This document shows positions 33,994 through 38,590 of a stretch of 64,000 nucleotides of DNA, piece after piece. The notes under the pieces were generated by a model. That model did no database searches and had not been told where the DNA came from. It worked only from the letters and a program-made list of their open reading frames with translations. How positions within the stretch are numbered: the stretch's first letter is position 1; each line of letters begins with the position of its first letter. The stretch is from Bacteroidota bacterium (GTDB taxonomy: Bacteria > Bacteroidota > Bacteroidia > Cytophagales > Cyclobacteriaceae): contig JAFDYT010000012.1 of NCBI GenBank assembly GCA_018266055.1, positions 149,111-213,110 on the forward strand, given 5' to 3'. A program made the position numbers and the translations under genes.

Positions 33994-34728
33994 ATAGACG
34001 TTTTTGGGGCCTAGACGAACGTTTTTGGGTATGAAATAGATGTGGCAGCACGTCCGATGCCCCTCATAGTGTAAGAAATAGACGTGGAGGTGTGCCCGAC
34101 GATTAGCAGGCGACGTGCGACGACTGAAGTCGATCGTATGACGATCGAAGTGCGACGTGTTACGATCGATGCACGACGTGTTACGACTGATATACGACAT
34201 GTGATGATCGAAGTGCGACGTGTTACGATCGATGCACGACGAATTACGACTGAAGTGCGACGTGTTACGACTGATGTACGACATGTGACGATCGATGTAC
34301 GACGTATTACGACTGAAGTGCGACGTGTGACGATCGAAGTGCGACGGGTGACGATTGAAGTGCAACGTATGACGATTGATGTACGACGTGTGACGACTGA
34401 TTTACGACGTATGACGATCGAAGTGCGACGTATGACGACTGATTTGCAACGTATTACGATTGATTTACGATGTGTGATGATCGAAGAGCGACGTATGACG
34501 ATCGATGTACGACGTGTGACGATTGAAGAGCGACGTATGACGATCGATGTACGACGTGTGACGATTGAAGTGCGACATATTACGATTGAAGTCAATCGAG
34601 TGCCAACTGAAGAGCGACGTGTGACGATTGAAGTTGCTCGAGTGATGTCTAACGCCCCTCCTGTAATGTCTAAAGTTCACCGAACGAGGTCTGACGTGGT
34701 GTGCATGGTGTCTATGCTGGCATGCCTG
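33994..34728. repeat. 21-bp tandem array, 35 phased units (26 well conserved)
   Basis: From 34099 to 34644 there are 26 consecutive 21-bp units close to ACGATCGAAGTGCGACGTGT plus one base. Main variants change GAAGTGCGACG to GATGTACGACG and GATC to GACT or GATT. Five decayed units precede (33994-34098) and four follow (34645-34728), all in exact 21-base register, 735 bp in total with no indel. The plus strand is open from a GTG at 34084 to a TGA at 34759-34761 (225 codons) as repeats of R-[VMI]-T-[IT]-[ED]-V-R. The minus strand is also open from 34595 to 34011 as TSIVIRR repeats, so coding cannot be inferred from openness. No spacers, so not CRISPR. Confidence 0.95.
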
Positions 34729-34840
34729 AAAAACGATTTCATTAGGTTGCTGTCCGACTGATTAAAACAGTCGGCCCTGTGATTGGTTTACGAATAAAAG
34801 ACTTTTGGATGGTGTATAGGGATTGGGTAGATTGGGGTAA

Positions 34841-34884
34841 GAGAGGGCTATATGCAATAGTTGCATATAGCGGGATGTTGGCTG
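34841..34884 (+). other. attC-like 3' segment before the first cassette gene
   Basis: Contains a perfect inverted repeat CTATATGCAA (34848-34857) / TTGCATATAG (34861-34870) with a three-base loop, then CGGGATGTTGGCTGCC, the same GTTG-GC end as other elements here. GGACA and the ATG of the BamE-like gene follow at once. Its 5' arm would lie where the 21-bp array decays and was not found. The DNA between 34762 and 34840 shows nothing else. Confidence 0.55.
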
Positions 34885-34900
34885 CCATTTATTTTGGACA

Positions 34901-35245
34901 ATGAGGACTCTTCTGACAATCGCGACAATTTTAATTCTAACGACTTCCTGTCAACAAAAATTTGAAAAGGAGAAATGGCAAACGCAGGGCGACTTGGGGA
35001 CTTATCCATATCGAGAATCTATGCTTGTGGACATTTTGGACAGTAAACAATTCGTGGGACTGAGACTTAGACAAATACCAGACTTACTCGGAGCACCAGA
35101 TGGACTGGCCGACTGTGAGATTTCCTATTCAATTATTTTGGACTACGGATCAGATATTGACCCTGTTTACACTAAGAATCTTGTTCTGACTTTTGACAAA
35201 GACTCAATCGTGACAGCAATGAAGATAGAGGAGTGGAAAAAATAA
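34901..35245 (+). CDS. Small BamE/SmpA-like lipoprotein
   Basis: 114 residues. The lipoprotein signal MRTLLTIATILILTTSC ends in a lipobox with the cysteine at residue 17. The mature domain reads YPYRESMLVDILDS, KQFVGLRLRQIPDLLGAPD, then two strands and a final DSIVTAMKIEEW. The helix-helix-strand order with GLRxxQIxxLLGxPD resembles the BamE/SmpA fold seen in many small Bacteroidota lipoproteins. Whether it acts in outer-membrane assembly is unknown. It lies tightly between two attC-like elements with only a few bases on either side, as a gene-cassette coding sequence does. Confidence 0.7.
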   Translation: MRTLLTIATILILTTSCQQKFEKEKWQTQGDLGTYPYRESMLVDILDSKQFVGLRLRQIPDLLGAPDGLADCEISYSIILDYGSDIDPVYTKNLVLTFDKDSIVTAMKIEEWKK

Positions 35246-35247
35246 AC

Positions 35248-35382
35248 GGCAGCCAACAGTGCGCATATTACAGCTGCGGGTTTTTTGCAGTTGGAAAAAT
35301 TATTTCATTATCTTCGTTTGGCTCGTGCGACAAGGCGCGGCAGTGAAAACCGTAGCCGCAATATGCGCGGGTCGTTGGACGC
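35248..35382 (+). other. attC-like recombination site 1
   Basis: Begins three bases after the preceding stop. The 5' arm GGCAGCCAACAGTGCGCATA pairs imperfectly with the 3' arm AATATGCGCGGGTCGTTGGA. GCGCATATT (35261-35269) and AATATGCGC (35360-35368) match perfectly, and the outer CCAAC / GTTGG cores pair. Further in, AGCTGCGGGTTTT pairs with AAAACCGTAGC with bulges. The roughly 60-base apical loop contains TTTGGCTCGTGCGACAAGGC, nearly identical to 38480-38499. Overall size, AAC/GTT ends, bulged pairing and position between genes are those of an integron attC site. Confidence 0.7.
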
Positions 35383-35398
35383 AATTATCAAATAGACC

Positions 35399-36463
35399 AT
35401 GGGAAAGAAAAAAGATATTTCGAAAAGAACTAGTGAATTTAAAGGAGTCCTTACAAGTGGGTTTCTAATTCATGACCCTAGATTTGTCACTACCATTTCT
35501 CTTTTATTTGACAAGGTATACATTCCTAATAACCTTGAGTTTGTAATAGAATTTTCAAAGAAGCATAAACTATTACCTTCAATTGACACTAGTAAATTTC
35601 AGATGTCGATTGAACCAGTTGATAGTGATACTGATGATGACCCGTTTCAGAACCTAACCAAACAAGAGAAAGAAACGGCAAATTACTATCTGTTCCATTC
35701 AGGTAATTTTTGTCTACACCATCACGAATTATTTCCATCTATACTACAAACAAGCTTATTCGAAAAAGGAGAACCATTAACTGCCAAACTCCTAAAAAAA
35801 GGAAAGAAAGGGAAAAAGAATTTATATAGAGTGACTACAAATCCACTCATTGTTACACTGGACGGATTTGACAATCTCAATAAAGAGTTAGATAATAACG
35901 CGATTCCGATTGTTGAACTAACTAAATCGAAAAACTCCTTTACACCAACAGGGCTGAAGCAAAACAAAGAAATAGCAGCGATTCTAGCAATGAAATCGAT
36001 CGAGATGCTATTACCATCTTTTAAGGCAGTTAAGCCTCAATTGATACTTGAGGCCAGGGATAAACTCTCCGACCAACTACCACAATATTGGTCGACTATG
36101 CTGAAATTTTCCCAAGAAGCGAAGCAAATCATTTCAGAAACAAAGTCCTTAACTGAGGCTTTAAATGAATGCCAGAATATCGTAGATTCAAATATAAGAC
36201 CAGCATTAATCGACCTAAATAGAAAGCTGGAATTAGAAAGAAAAAACTGGTTCTACAGGATTTTAACACCTGTTGGAAAAACAATTAAGCTTTTAGTTGG
36301 TCAACCTGCAATGACCACACAAGATTTACTGTCTGCATCTATATCTTTGACGACAAACGTGACCTCTGACTTTGTACGACACAAAAGAAAAATTGAAGAA
36401 TTACAGAATGACGCTGGACTAACATACTTGTTTGAATTGAATAAATTAATTGAGGGAAGATAA
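35399..36463 (+). CDS. Uncharacterised cytoplasmic protein in a cassette-like position
   Basis: 354 residues, no signal peptide or membrane segment. Starts MGKKKDISKRTSEFKGVLTS followed by GFLIHDPRFVTTISLLFDKVYIPNN, which could be a beta/alpha core, then long helical regions with lysine-rich stretches (LLKKGKKGKKNLYR) and a predicted coiled coil near residues 215-300. I do not recognise a family. AT-rich composition differs from the housekeeping genes. Flanked by attC-like sites 1 and 2 with 17 and 1-2 bases between, so it is the second gene of the cassette-like cluster. Confidence 0.7.
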   Translation: MGKKKDISKRTSEFKGVLTSGFLIHDPRFVTTISLLFDKVYIPNNLEFVIEFSKKHKLLPSIDTSKFQMSIEPVDSDTDDDPFQNLTKQEKETANYYLFHSGNFCLHHHELFPSILQTSLFEKGEPLTAKLLKKGKKGKKNLYRVTTNPLIVTLDGFDNLNKELDNNAIPIVELTKSKNSFTPTGLKQNKEIAAILAMKSIEMLLPSFKAVKPQLILEARDKLSDQLPQYWSTMLKFSQEAKQIISETKSLTEALNECQNIVDSNIRPALIDLNRKLELERKNWFYRILTPVGKTIKLLVGQPAMTTQDLLSASISLTTNVTSDFVRHKRKIEELQNDAGLTYLFELNKLIEGR

Positions 36464-36464
36464 C

Positions 36465-36640
36465 TGCGCCCAACAAAATGTATGTGCCATTGTGGGGTGT
36501 AGTGTAAATTTGTAGTTTGGTTTTCAAACAACGTTCGGTCACGGTGGACCGTTTTGGGGTAAGTCGGGCAAAACAGTCGTTCCTCCTTTATTTACCCTCC
36601 TATGTCCGCAACGTCACATACACAAACGTTATGTGCCATA
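36465..36640 (+). other. attC-like recombination site 2
   Basis: Starts right after the stop of the preceding gene. The 5' core GCGCCCAAC and the 3' core ACGTTATGTGCC end an imperfect stem in which TGTATGTG (36479-36486) pairs with CACATACA (36615-36622). The apical part contains CGGTCACGGTGGACCG, comparable to the loop blocks of sites 1 and 4. The next gene starts 17 bases after the 3' end. Confidence 0.6.
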
Positions 36641-36656
36641 ATTTGACAAAGAGTAA

Positions 36657-37616
36657 ATGAGTTTAAAGGTTAGAGAACAATTTCCAGAATTTGAAGTCGA
36701 TGAGTTCACTGAAGAAAAAGAACTAACGCTGGACGAGACAATAAACGCACTAAAAGAATTTAACTGGACAGAAGAATATTCCAAGAGTGTCAAAATAATT
36801 GAGCAACACGCTGAACCCTCGATTTGGTTAAAGAATCAGTGTGGAGACAAACTATCGATCTATTGGGCAGAGAACAATAAGTTCGCTATTTACTTTTCTC
36901 CAAAAATGCGAAGATCAAGCACTTCAATTGTAAATGGACTTGATCAAGTCGATGCTGTCGTTAAATTATTCGACAGAGGTGAGAGACATTTGCTCCTAAA
37001 TCGACTTAGGACGTCTGAGTATCATCACAAAACTCATTGGTTTCTTGACTTGATACAATTCTTTATTCACAAAAATAAAACGAGGACTTCACGAGAAATT
37101 GTCAAAGAAGAATTTGTCTATCAGATGAAGAATCTTTCGATAATTAAGAAACTCACGTTTTCTCTGCTGTTTTTTCTAATGCCTTCAACAATCTGGGTTT
37201 ATTCTTACTTGGTCAATAATAAGCCGTTTAATCTAACAGCGTTTTTAGGGATACAAACCTTTATGACATTGATGGCCACCCCAGGAATTATTATTGCAAT
37301 CAATCATTGGAGAAAGAACGGCAGATGGAATGTCTATTTTAGAAAAGGAGACAACAAGTTTATTATAGTGTCCCCGACAGGAAAAGAAATCTTTGACAAA
37401 GTTGATTTTACAAAGAGGTCAACTACAGTGAACGACAGCCACGCACCCTGGAACAGTTTTGAGTACACAACACTGATAAAAAACACTGGAGAACAAATTC
37501 ACTTTTCAAATCTGTTAATTCCAACATCGGACTTTGATAAATTATTTGGACGAATTGAAGAAACGAGGTGCAAAAGCGGATTTCAAATAATAAAGGATAA
37601 GAAAATTAAAGATTAA
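36657..37616 (+). CDS. Uncharacterised protein with two central membrane helices
   Basis: 319 residues. The N-terminal half is soluble (EFPEFEVDEFTEEKELTLDE, WAENNKFAIYFSPK), two membrane helices follow (about residues 165-187 LTFSLLFFLMPSTIWVYSYL and 196-216), then a beta-rich C-terminal domain (VYFRKGDNKFIIVSPTGKE, EYTTLIKNTGEQIHFSN). The two soluble parts would lie on the same side of the membrane. No family recognised. Third gene of the cassette-like cluster, between attC-like elements 2 and 3. Confidence 0.68.
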   Translation: MSLKVREQFPEFEVDEFTEEKELTLDETINALKEFNWTEEYSKSVKIIEQHAEPSIWLKNQCGDKLSIYWAENNKFAIYFSPKMRRSSTSIVNGLDQVDAVVKLFDRGERHLLLNRLRTSEYHHKTHWFLDLIQFFIHKNKTRTSREIVKEEFVYQMKNLSIIKKLTFSLLFFLMPSTIWVYSYLVNNKPFNLTAFLGIQTFMTLMATPGIIIAINHWRKNGRWNVYFRKGDNKFIIVSPTGKEIFDKVDFTKRSTTVNDSHAPWNSFEYTTLIKNTGEQIHFSNLLIPTSDFDKLFGRIEETRCKSGFQIIKDKKIKD

Positions 37617-37617
37617 G

Positions 37618-37912
37618 AAATTACGGCACACTACATTATGGTTATGTCAGCTTGTGGCTCGTATTAGATAGTAGTTAAGTTTTCTTTATTTCCTTCATCG
37701 CGGAGTTACTCGTTTGGAGAACTCTGCGTATGAAACAGGTTGGAATTATGTGTTGCTGAGTCCCTTTTTTACAGACACTTCTTTTGTGCAGTCCCGGTTA
37801 AATACTCACCGGCGTTTGAGAAGAAAGGATAAAAGGGTATTTTGGAGGAACGCAATAGAGAGGTATGTGTAATAGGTGCATATAGCGAGATGTTGCCAGC
37901 AATGCTTCAGGA
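37618..37912 (+). other. attC-like element 3 (long or composite)
   Basis: Fills the 318-base gap between two cassette genes. The 5' part (TACGGCACACTACATTATGG) shows no clean pairing with the 3' end. The middle carries the inverted repeat GGAGTT / AACTC and the block TAGTTAAGTTTTCTTTATTT also seen in site 4. The 3' part (37821-37912) aligns with 551-647 and ends ATAGCGAGATGTTGCCAGCA, a GTTG-GC end like the others. Probably two elements fused or one decayed. Confidence 0.5.
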
Positions 37913-37934
37913 CATAACTAGTTAACAATTTAAC

Positions 37935-38396
37935 ATGGCTAGACTTCTTATTTTGTTTTCATTCTTATTGACAAGTTGCAATGCTTTCAGGGATGACCTT
38001 GAATTGAAAATAGTTTTCGCTGACGTATCGGGACTAACAGTCAGTTCTAGAGTTACACTAAATGGACTGGAACTAGGACGCGTGAAATCAATTGAACTGG
38101 ACAATTCCTATCAAGTAATCACGACAATATTTCTAACTGACAACTTACCGTCTGATTCTCAATTTACTTTAATACCAAATGCCTTAGGACAATCAGAAAT
38201 AAAAGTAACGACAGGAAAAAGTACCTCTCTTTTTAAAACGGGTCAGCAAGTAACTGGACAAATTGAAAAATTCAAACCTAGCTCAGAAGAAGGCGACAAT
38301 CTCATTGACAACTTATTCGGAATAAAAAAACGCGACTCGTTATTATTAGAACTTCGAAGACTTAATAAGAAGGTCGACAGTTTAATGAAAAAATAA
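37935..38396 (+). CDS. Minimal MCE-domain lipoprotein
   Basis: 153 residues. Lipobox LTSC with the cysteine near residue 15, then a complete single MCE domain: LKIVFADVSGLTVSSRVTLN, GLELGRVKSIEL, TTIFLTDNLPSDSQFTLIPN and LGQSEIKVTTGK, followed by a charged tail with a short coiled coil (LLLELRRLNKKVDSLMKK). MCE proteins form hexameric lipid-carrying rings. As a lipoprotein without a membrane helix this one resembles the lipoprotein members of MCE systems, which sit in the outer membrane or periplasm. It is the fourth gene of the cassette-like cluster and is separate from the chromosomal MlaD-like protein at 18933-19907. Confidence 0.78.
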   Translation: MARLLILFSFLLTSCNAFRDDLELKIVFADVSGLTVSSRVTLNGLELGRVKSIELDNSYQVITTIFLTDNLPSDSQFTLIPNALGQSEIKVTTGKSTSLFKTGQQVTGQIEKFKPSSEEGDNLIDNLFGIKKRDSLLLELRRLNKKVDSLMKK

Positions 38397-38411
38397 AGTT
38401 TGGAGTTTCGC

Positions 38412-38590
38412 ACTGCTGCCAACTGTTTATATCAACTGCGGGTGACGTGTAGATTTGAAGTTTAGTTTTCTTTATTTAGTTTGGCTCGGTGGACAAGGCG
38501 TTGAAGGTCGGCCTTGGCATTCCGCTTCGCTTCATTGCTAAGCCCTCCTAAACCTCGCTACCGCTCATACACTCACGTTAGTGGCAGCCT
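38412..38590 (+). other. attC-like recombination site 4
   Basis: 5' core GCTGCCAAC (38415-38423) and 3' end ACGTTAGTGGCAGCC (38575-38589) are partly complementary. The apical part holds TTTGGCTCGGTGGACAAGGC (38480-38499), shared with site 1, and an inner hairpin CAAGGC / GCCTTG. It closes the cluster: the following 70 bases are AT-rich and lead to the MarR operator. Confidence 0.6.

Follow-up and report, generated by a model that had tools for sequence, protein, structure and literature searches.

A gene cassette cluster without an integrase in a Bacteroidota genome, probably a satellite of an integron-like system whose recombinase is related to IntI

Introduction

What assembled a row of four small genes, all read in one direction and separated only by structured DNA, at a place where no integrase gene is found? 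The question is raised by a cluster at positions 34842-38586 of a 64,000-nucleotide stretch of a Bacteroidota bacterium (hereafter the window: positions 149111-213110 of contig C3 in a draft genome of 4.79 Mb). Integrons play a central part in gene capture; the I2 helix of the integron integrase IntI is regarded as the innovation which enables integrases to act on single strands. Integrons are rarely reported in Bacteroidota, and I2 is thought to be essential in ordinary ones.

We propose, with a probability of about 0.88, that the cluster is a partly decayed satellite, similar to a cluster of attC sites lacking integron-integrases (CALIN), of an integron-like system run in trans by a recombinase encoded elsewhere in the genome. 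The name BacInt is used here for the family of Bacteroidota tyrosine recombinases to which this protein is assigned; as judged from sequence, BacInt is the sister family of IntI and is devoid of the I2 helix region. The units of the system are bounded by GTT/AAC cores of their own, with putative hairpin sites between them, and at the candidate attI site behind the recombinase gene the sequence changes at GTT.

Results

Cassette units and their cores

The four open reading frames (ORFs) lie on the plus strand at 34901-35245 (114 aa), 35399-36463 (354 aa), 36657-37616 (319 aa) and 37935-38396 (153 aa), in agreement with the positions and common orientation given in a preliminary description of this DNA made from its letters alone. 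Their AT-richness, also described there, is equally evident, with GC contents of 0.35-0.40 against 0.46 for the window. Each ORF is enclosed in a unit which opens with a GTT core (R') and closes with an AAC core (R''), and the two cores of a unit match each other. In cassette 1 (34877..35257) the 5' core GTTGGCTGCCATTTAT is answered at the 3' end by ATAAACGGCAGCCAAC, pairing at 11 of 12 positions (7/7 in the cassette scan). In cassettes 2 (35374..36474), 3 (36628..37634, whose R'' ends in TAC, not AAC) and 4 (37892..38423) the core sequences differ between units and match inside each unit, at 10, 9 and 10 of 12 positions, respectively. This within-unit pairing is the best of the 24 permutations of the window cores; 2643 of 200000 random GTT/AAC pairs reached 9 of 12, and pairing across a single intergenic element gave 8, 7, 6 and 8 of 12. 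Such a match within units is expected in an integron, because a cassette's R' and R'' lay side by side in its circular form, whereas the two ends of an array site stem from different cassettes.

A fixed operon or gene row, with terminators or RNA elements as its intergenic hairpins, would also consist of co-directional genes with structured spacers, and a scan with Rfam over the window, which returned no match, does not decide the matter. The cores, however, pair better across the genes than across the hairpins. Moreover, desaturase orthologues, corresponding to the gene to the left of the cluster, were found in six other genomes, and in all five whose neighbourhoods were read cassettes 1-4 are absent beside the orthologue; the same genes in the same order, which would have spoken against the preliminary description, were thus not seen in these relatives. 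In 44 of the 54 sites of the family described below, window site 1 excepted, it is also the DNA strand opposite to the transcript that folds better. We find a fixed operon very hard to reconcile with these data.

Three of the four intergenic elements, all on the plus strand, were matched by R2, a covariance model whose 35 training sites all come from other genomes: attC-like site 1 at 35248..35383 (28.7 bits, E 1e-4; inverted repeat I3), site 2 at 36465..36637 (53.7 bits, E 1.2e-10) and the partly decayed site 4 at 38414..38586 (18.3 bits, E 0.029). Element 3 (37618-37912) gave no R2 match. It is a decayed attC, of which the R'' core remains within 37623..37856 together with the sequence that precedes a separate attI-like copy at 37857..37900 (plus strand; aligned with the native attI region described below, blastn 87% over 52 nt). 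Another attI-like copy, GAGGGCTATATGCAATAGTTGCATATAGCGGGATGTTGGCTGC, stands on the same strand at the very start of the cluster (34842..34885; aligned with the same region, 87% over 63 nt). These two borders, beginning at 34842 and 37857, were missed in the preliminary description. Its claim that an attC-like site follows each gene, like the covariance-model search it proposed for the four intervals, holds for elements 1, 2 and 4 and fails for element 3, which is not an intact attC. The loop block that it saw in elements 1 and 4 was recovered (84% identity over 25 nt), and its exact pattern matched only these two places in the whole genome.

A decayed integrase gene in place at the cluster was considered and is unsupported: protein and DNA searches of the window for integrase remnants gave no protein match beyond chance, and the DNA matches are of attI size only. 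The evidence supports the idea, put forward in the preliminary description, of an integrase-less cassette cluster in a Bacteroidota genome, and shows its sites to be of a distinct family.

A recombinase family beside IntI

The preliminary description advised looking for IntI elsewhere in the genome. An integrase is indeed encoded there, but it is not IntI by the defining domain: the best match is a tyrosine recombinase of 378 aa on contig C12, and canonical IntI had 0 matches in this genome at E<=1e-60. When BacInt was tested with TIGR02249, its 196 bits stayed below the cut-off of 265. The distance between the K loop and the HxxR box is 100 residues in 12/12 IntI proteins (canonical rows L152, with a fused frame, and L154, with no frame found, were dropped beforehand) and 57-63 residues in the 63 measured of 68 BacInt members, all 63 of which are short of about 40 residues in the region of the I2 helix. 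The I2/patch III region, named as the IntI-specific integrase domain in passages of PMC9668308 and PMC7790495, is thus absent from BacInt by both box distance and alignment. In the latter, residues 182-243 of the IntI4 chain (2a3v; 62 residues) are answered by 19 residues in BacInt. According to a passage of PMC3053210, residues touching extrahelical bases in 2a3v include K209, Y210, W219, P232, H240 and H241; if the numbering agrees, all six would fall inside this stretch.

All 40 members of one alignment (A2) match Phage_integrase and the SAM-like core-binding domain. Most BacInt members are also extended at the N terminus by about 90 residues, and four of the 40 gave a weak HARP match there (three seen individually were under the Pfam cut-off). 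A careful tree of 37 proteins (25 BacInt, 6 IntI, 4 XerC/D and 2 XerA fragments; L077, L098, the genome's own XerC and an IS91-linked row were left out) separated BacInt and IntI from XerA and XerC/D with support of 100/99, within the limits of long Xer branches and few outgroups. The IntI clade (100/100) excludes BacInt, which forms a sister clade (90/75). A grouping of BacInt with XerA was rejected (p-AU, approximately unbiased test, 0.0025). A quicker tree agrees, and in it an IS91-associated recombinase falls in or beside BacInt.

Some members stand in other surroundings. One lies on the Chryseobacterium oryzae plasmid NZ_CP094530.1 (L215:8899-10572), where a VOC-family gene comes next, along with an IS91/tyrosine recombinase pair. 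Three others (L071, L078 and L092) directly precede not attI but a gene which we take, from its translated start, to encode a protein similar to single-stranded-DNA-binding proteins; at these loci sites occur farther along.

Arrays in the same genome

An attI-like site, gagggctatatgcaataaggtgcatatagcgggatGTTG, is placed around and behind the stop codon of the C12 integrase gene, so that the native attI overlaps the 3' end of the gene; three cassettes follow, and then the contig ends. The cassette sites of this array measure about 163 nt, and the two complete ones agree at 96%, the third being cut. Contigs C12, C4, C19 and C3 together have ten stretches of DNA that match these sites, four of which lie at a contig end, and the core logic of the C12 array and of the window recurs in arrays on C19, on C4 and at the end of C3. 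R2, from whose training this genome was absent, found 15 places in it, two of them in the window. A search with the attI pattern, at up to 3 mismatches, gave 14 places, 13 of which have the GTT, the native site included; the backward control gave 1. The attI-like copies differ upstream: some include part of the integrase 3' end, and others have a different sequence there.

A third attI-like copy of the window lies at 588-632. At its GTT begins an ORF of about 142 aa (approximately 652-1080, read by eye), for which no recognisable end site was seen.

Cassette cargo in this genome comprises two SMODS nucleotidyltransferases, a PLD-like protein, an AbiV-like HEPN protein and a short-chain dehydrogenase as well as, below the Pfam cut-offs, proteins resembling leucine-rich repeat and tetratricopeptide repeat proteins. 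A unit of 3.8 kb behind an attI-like copy at the end of C3 (L200:10567-14359) holds two genes of the CD-NTase (cGAS/DncV-like nucleotidyltransferase; SMODS) type. CD-NTases are the cyclases of CBASS (cyclic-oligonucleotide-based antiphage signalling system) defence, and the unit looks as if a CBASS-like module had travelled as one cassette. Of the four proteins of the window cluster, Pfam recognises only that of ORF 4 (MlaD, PF02470, 6.9e-10). PADLOC models had no match to the four at E<=0.001, and no homologue from other genomes was present among the loci then gathered, a set short of a collection-wide search.

Arrays in other genomes

The rule seen in the window was examined in 12 arrays, namely 10 of the 25 repeat-cluster loci (41 examined), the C12 array and the window itself; some clusters inside the chosen loci were excluded by hand, and mis-called sites (e.g. 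the first of L086, the second of L070 and window element 4) were kept in the counts. Cores of the same cassette pair at a mean of 5.58/7 positions (n=36; 19 perfect), against 2.58 for the two cores of the same site (n=48) and 2.68 for all-by-all comparison, and none of 10000 random draws reached the same-cassette mean. The set thus shows tandem cassettes with R'/R'' pairing of their own.

Direction is equally regular. In 46 loci the sequence extends 700 nt or more beyond the integrase gene on its downstream side. A strict scan of their integrase strand found 53 cassettes downstream (25 loci, 264 kb) and 0 upstream (390 kb); on the opposite strand of the downstream DNA it found 42, because the strict test is nearly palindromic. 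R2 at E<=0.001 gave 120 matches in 36 of the 46 loci, up to 35 of them its own training sites, all on the integrase strand and, by coordinates, downstream of the integrase gene.

Several loci show what happens at the GTT. Integrases of L051 and L052 (one genome) and of L053 (same genus) are closely related; their attI sites are near-identical up to ...AGCCATTCGTT, and three different cassettes follow. L048 and L058, of different genera, are identical from the GTT on (74/74 nt) and agree at 13/30 positions upstream of it. In these five loci an attI beside the integrase gene, with insertion at GTT, is apparent on sequence grounds. An inverted repeat precedes the GTT in 13/20 attI candidates and in 16/100 controls; the 7 candidates without it include some doubtful picks. 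Whole cassettes are common to L086 and L099 (684/684 nt aligned, at 78.6%) and to L117 (Belliella) and L126 (Runella; 661/661 nt, at 69%). These two pairs account for the 3 of 9 rows of the shared-cassette listing that run end to end, the rest being partial; in them the borders fall exactly at the cores and the flanks differ. As a side observation, site lengths in L065-L142 and in the genome studied here cluster near 80, 124, 163 and about 190 nt, that is in steps of about 40 nt.

Inverted repeats flank all four genes of the window cluster (for gene 1, the repeat numbered I2, 20 nt at 95%), and one may ask whether each gene is a unit like a miniature inverted-repeat transposable element (MITE), moved by an unrelated transposase and leaving the hairpins as by-products. 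The repeats, however, vary between units and match best within a unit; the arrays begin at one site beside one recombinase gene and extend in one direction; and the intergenic stems covary, as described below. Such an origin seems to us most improbable.

Distribution of the family

With the BacInt alignment at E<=1e-85, matches were found in 144/295 sampled Bacteroidia genomes, representing 88/155 genera, a survey which counts integrases, not verified arrays. TIGR02249 scored above its cut-off, as for canonical IntI, in 1/295. Among 30 survey loci read with flanks of at most about 1.5 kb, 11 have an R2 site. In the phylum sample canonical IntI was found in 84/296, with one in Bacteroidia among the matches listed, the share of this class in the 296 not being shown. 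Relatives of the C12 integrase were collected by a scan of genome contigs, and among the best 80 of 530 loci the nearest come from a Chryseolinea metagenome-assembled genome (MAG; 55%) and Chryseosolibacter indicus (54%). Contigs end within 1 kb downstream of the integrase gene in 36/80 of these loci and within 1 kb upstream in 2/80; repeated sites would cause such breaks.

Bacteroidota records account for most of the family; seven of the 80 loci (L080, L095, L098, L106, L108, L125 and L134) are filed under names of other phyla, which could mean either misbinned MAGs or transfer between phyla. Four strong sites of the BacInt type, according to R2, occur at L235:1834-4511 in a genome with canonical IntI; this locus was counted as canonical.

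Folding, covariation and strand of the sites

When the 35 BacInt sites of other genomes are aligned, the common fold has 19 pairs, 16 of which have changes on both sides; covariation of the stems, whose lack would have argued against the preliminary description, is thus present. The bottom strand has the lower folding energy in 44/54 sites (p 7e-7), a set which excluded sites with an arm score <10, a length <70 or N and retained the mis-called window element 4. Outer stems of 64 sites (52 of the 53 strict ones and 12 from the genome studied here) contain 156 G.T wobbles in the bottom folds and 50 in the top folds. When the core-adjacent pair, which canonical sites share, is left out, the counts are 108 against 49 (p 8e-6); the same count in 25 canonical sites, which come from 3 loci only, is 23 against 16 (p 0.42). 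The claim about strand rests on single-fold energies and G.T wobble counts, not on the site alignment. Spacer asymmetry, under the same treatment, is similar in canonical and BacInt sites.

Bulges are where the two kinds of site part. One-sided bulges of 1-2 nt, of the extrahelical type, average 0.34 per site in the 64 BacInt sites against 2.36 in the 25 canonical ones (p 2e-12), although some loci (e.g. L086, L097, L117, L121, L130 and C12) average 1-2 extrahelical bases. The bulged arms of the preliminary description are accordingly no regular feature of the family. BacInt sites do resemble attC in being imperfect palindromes with paired R and L boxes and a bottom-strand fold; what they generally lack are extrahelical bases along one side of the stem.

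These comparisons bear on whether the cluster is simply a CALIN of the usual kind, belonging to canonical IntI integrons and having attC sites that have diverged. The GTT/AAC core logic, the cassette organisation and the spacer asymmetry are common to both, and R1, a model of canonical attC, does match 6 BacInt sites, weakly (20-28 bits). Those six, however, come from 25 BacInt sources, whereas in 10 canonical loci R1 matched 37 sites (23 from its training set, 14 not), and on the window it gave no match. Given also the scarcity of extrahelical-type bulges and the absence of canonical IntI from the genome and nearly all of its sampled class, we consider this explanation unlikely, if somewhat less so than the operon or the MITE-like units.

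Neighbourhood of the cluster

On the left, the desaturase and PriA genes have GC contents of 0.50-0.51; two genes to the right are AT-rich (0.30 and 0.38), as the cluster is. Directly before the cluster lies a tandem array of 21-bp units in 23 registers, similar to ACGACTGAAGTGCGACGTGTT (34014-34739). Further short-unit repeats occur at 1-260 of the window and also beside the integrase gene on C12.

Discussion

The data suggest a mechanism in which the folded bottom strands of two attC sites would recombine, so that a cassette is excised as a circle; the circle would then insert into attI at GTT, and the cassette's own R' and R'' would meet again. We infer recombination of these cassettes from sequence. 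In a system that lacks the I2 helix and has few extrahelical bases, the strand might be told by the G.T wobbles, which are commoner in the folded bottom strand, and the asymmetry of the spacer that separates the R and L boxes may be a second cue; the extra N-terminal domain perhaps helps in the choice. Joint loss of the extrahelical bases and of the protein region that docks them would fit a different way of reading the strand. Ectopic attI-like sites, which are scattered in this genome, probably gave rise to the window cluster itself, either as points of insertion or by being copied; partial decay followed. Such copies could let the lineage seed cassette clusters around the chromosome.

Several observations weigh against this interpretation. 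No excision circle, recombination event or strain-to-strain difference has been observed, and no clean empty site was seen in the five relatives, in which little is syntenic beyond the desaturase. A cluster that has attI copies but no integrase is not expected from simple decay of one integron. In the window the sites are weaker than in the family at large, site 3 having no R2 match and site 4 reaching only E 0.029, and site 1 folds slightly better as top strand (-19.5 vs -18.1 for the bottom). In the larger sets, 7/36 same-cassette pairs match at no more than 3 of 7 positions, perhaps through missed sites, and 10/46 integrase loci are without an R2 site. The site alignment is by itself neutral as to the strand, with 19 A.C mismatch cells and 19 G.U wobble cells, and of 27 loci with wobbles counted separately 5 have their excess in the top strand and 17 in the bottom.

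A wider proposal, which we hold to be rather more probable than its opposite, is that Bacteroidota possess a separate and common integron lineage which either never had I2 or lost it, and which would capture genes through folded strands without I2 docking, reading the strand from wobbles and spacer. If this is true, the lineage would be the missing comparison for the origin of integrons. Our results suggest that software designed around IntI and canonical attC may overlook a large gene-exchange network in Bacteroidia. A passage of PMC7790495 (eLife) states that intermediates are lacking. That question becomes directly testable in a sister lineage which has cassettes, attI and covarying hairpins but is without I2 and has few extrahelical bases.

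Earlier accounts touch on this system at a few points. As told in a passage of PMC9024848, an earlier survey found only lone integrases in Bacteroidetes, after which one complete integron was described, in Salinibacter ruber; passages of PMC8618304 and PMC2426708 place Bacteroidota or Bacteroidetes/Chlorobi among the integron-bearing groups. A subgroup of integron-like recombinases whose insertion is not fully conserved is mentioned in a part of PMC8138268, and BacInt-like proteins may already be included in it, unnamed. In the literature searched, which left preprints and most subscription journals outside, we found neither a description of the BacInt system nor a report testing the action of BacInt on these sites.

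Compared with IntI integrons (class 1, Vibrio-type and L232-L234), the BacInt system has a recombinase of the same larger clade, an attI, tandem cassettes with GTT/AAC cores, and attC sites with R and L boxes and bottom-strand folding. It differs in lacking the I2 region, in the N-terminal stretch of about 90 residues present in most members, and in its sites, which have few extrahelical bases and are mostly missed by the canonical model. The layout differs as well: the BacInt gene is co-directional with its cassettes and has attI at its 3' end, whereas in the three canonical control arrays, as we read the coordinates, the integrase is on the plus strand and the array on the minus strand at the integrase 5' side. 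XerA, XerC and XerD share the catalytic domain with BacInt, and XerD has a similar box spacing (66 residues); unlike them, BacInt groups with IntI in the tree.

The window cluster is most readily set beside CALINs, worded in a passage of PMC9668308 as at least 2 attC sites <4 kb apart with no integrase. It resembles them in having three recognisable attC-like sites, the R2 matches of 35248-38586, within 3.3 kb and no integrase match beyond chance, and departs from them in its non-canonical site family and its attI-like borders. For embedded attI copies, the nearest precedent is the DeltaattI-type cassettes of mobile integrons (class 1 and 2), which, according to a part of PMC12901181, likewise contain attI copies of varying length. 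In the genome studied here, unlike in those cassettes, the attI-like copies precede cassettes or ORFs at several chromosomal places.

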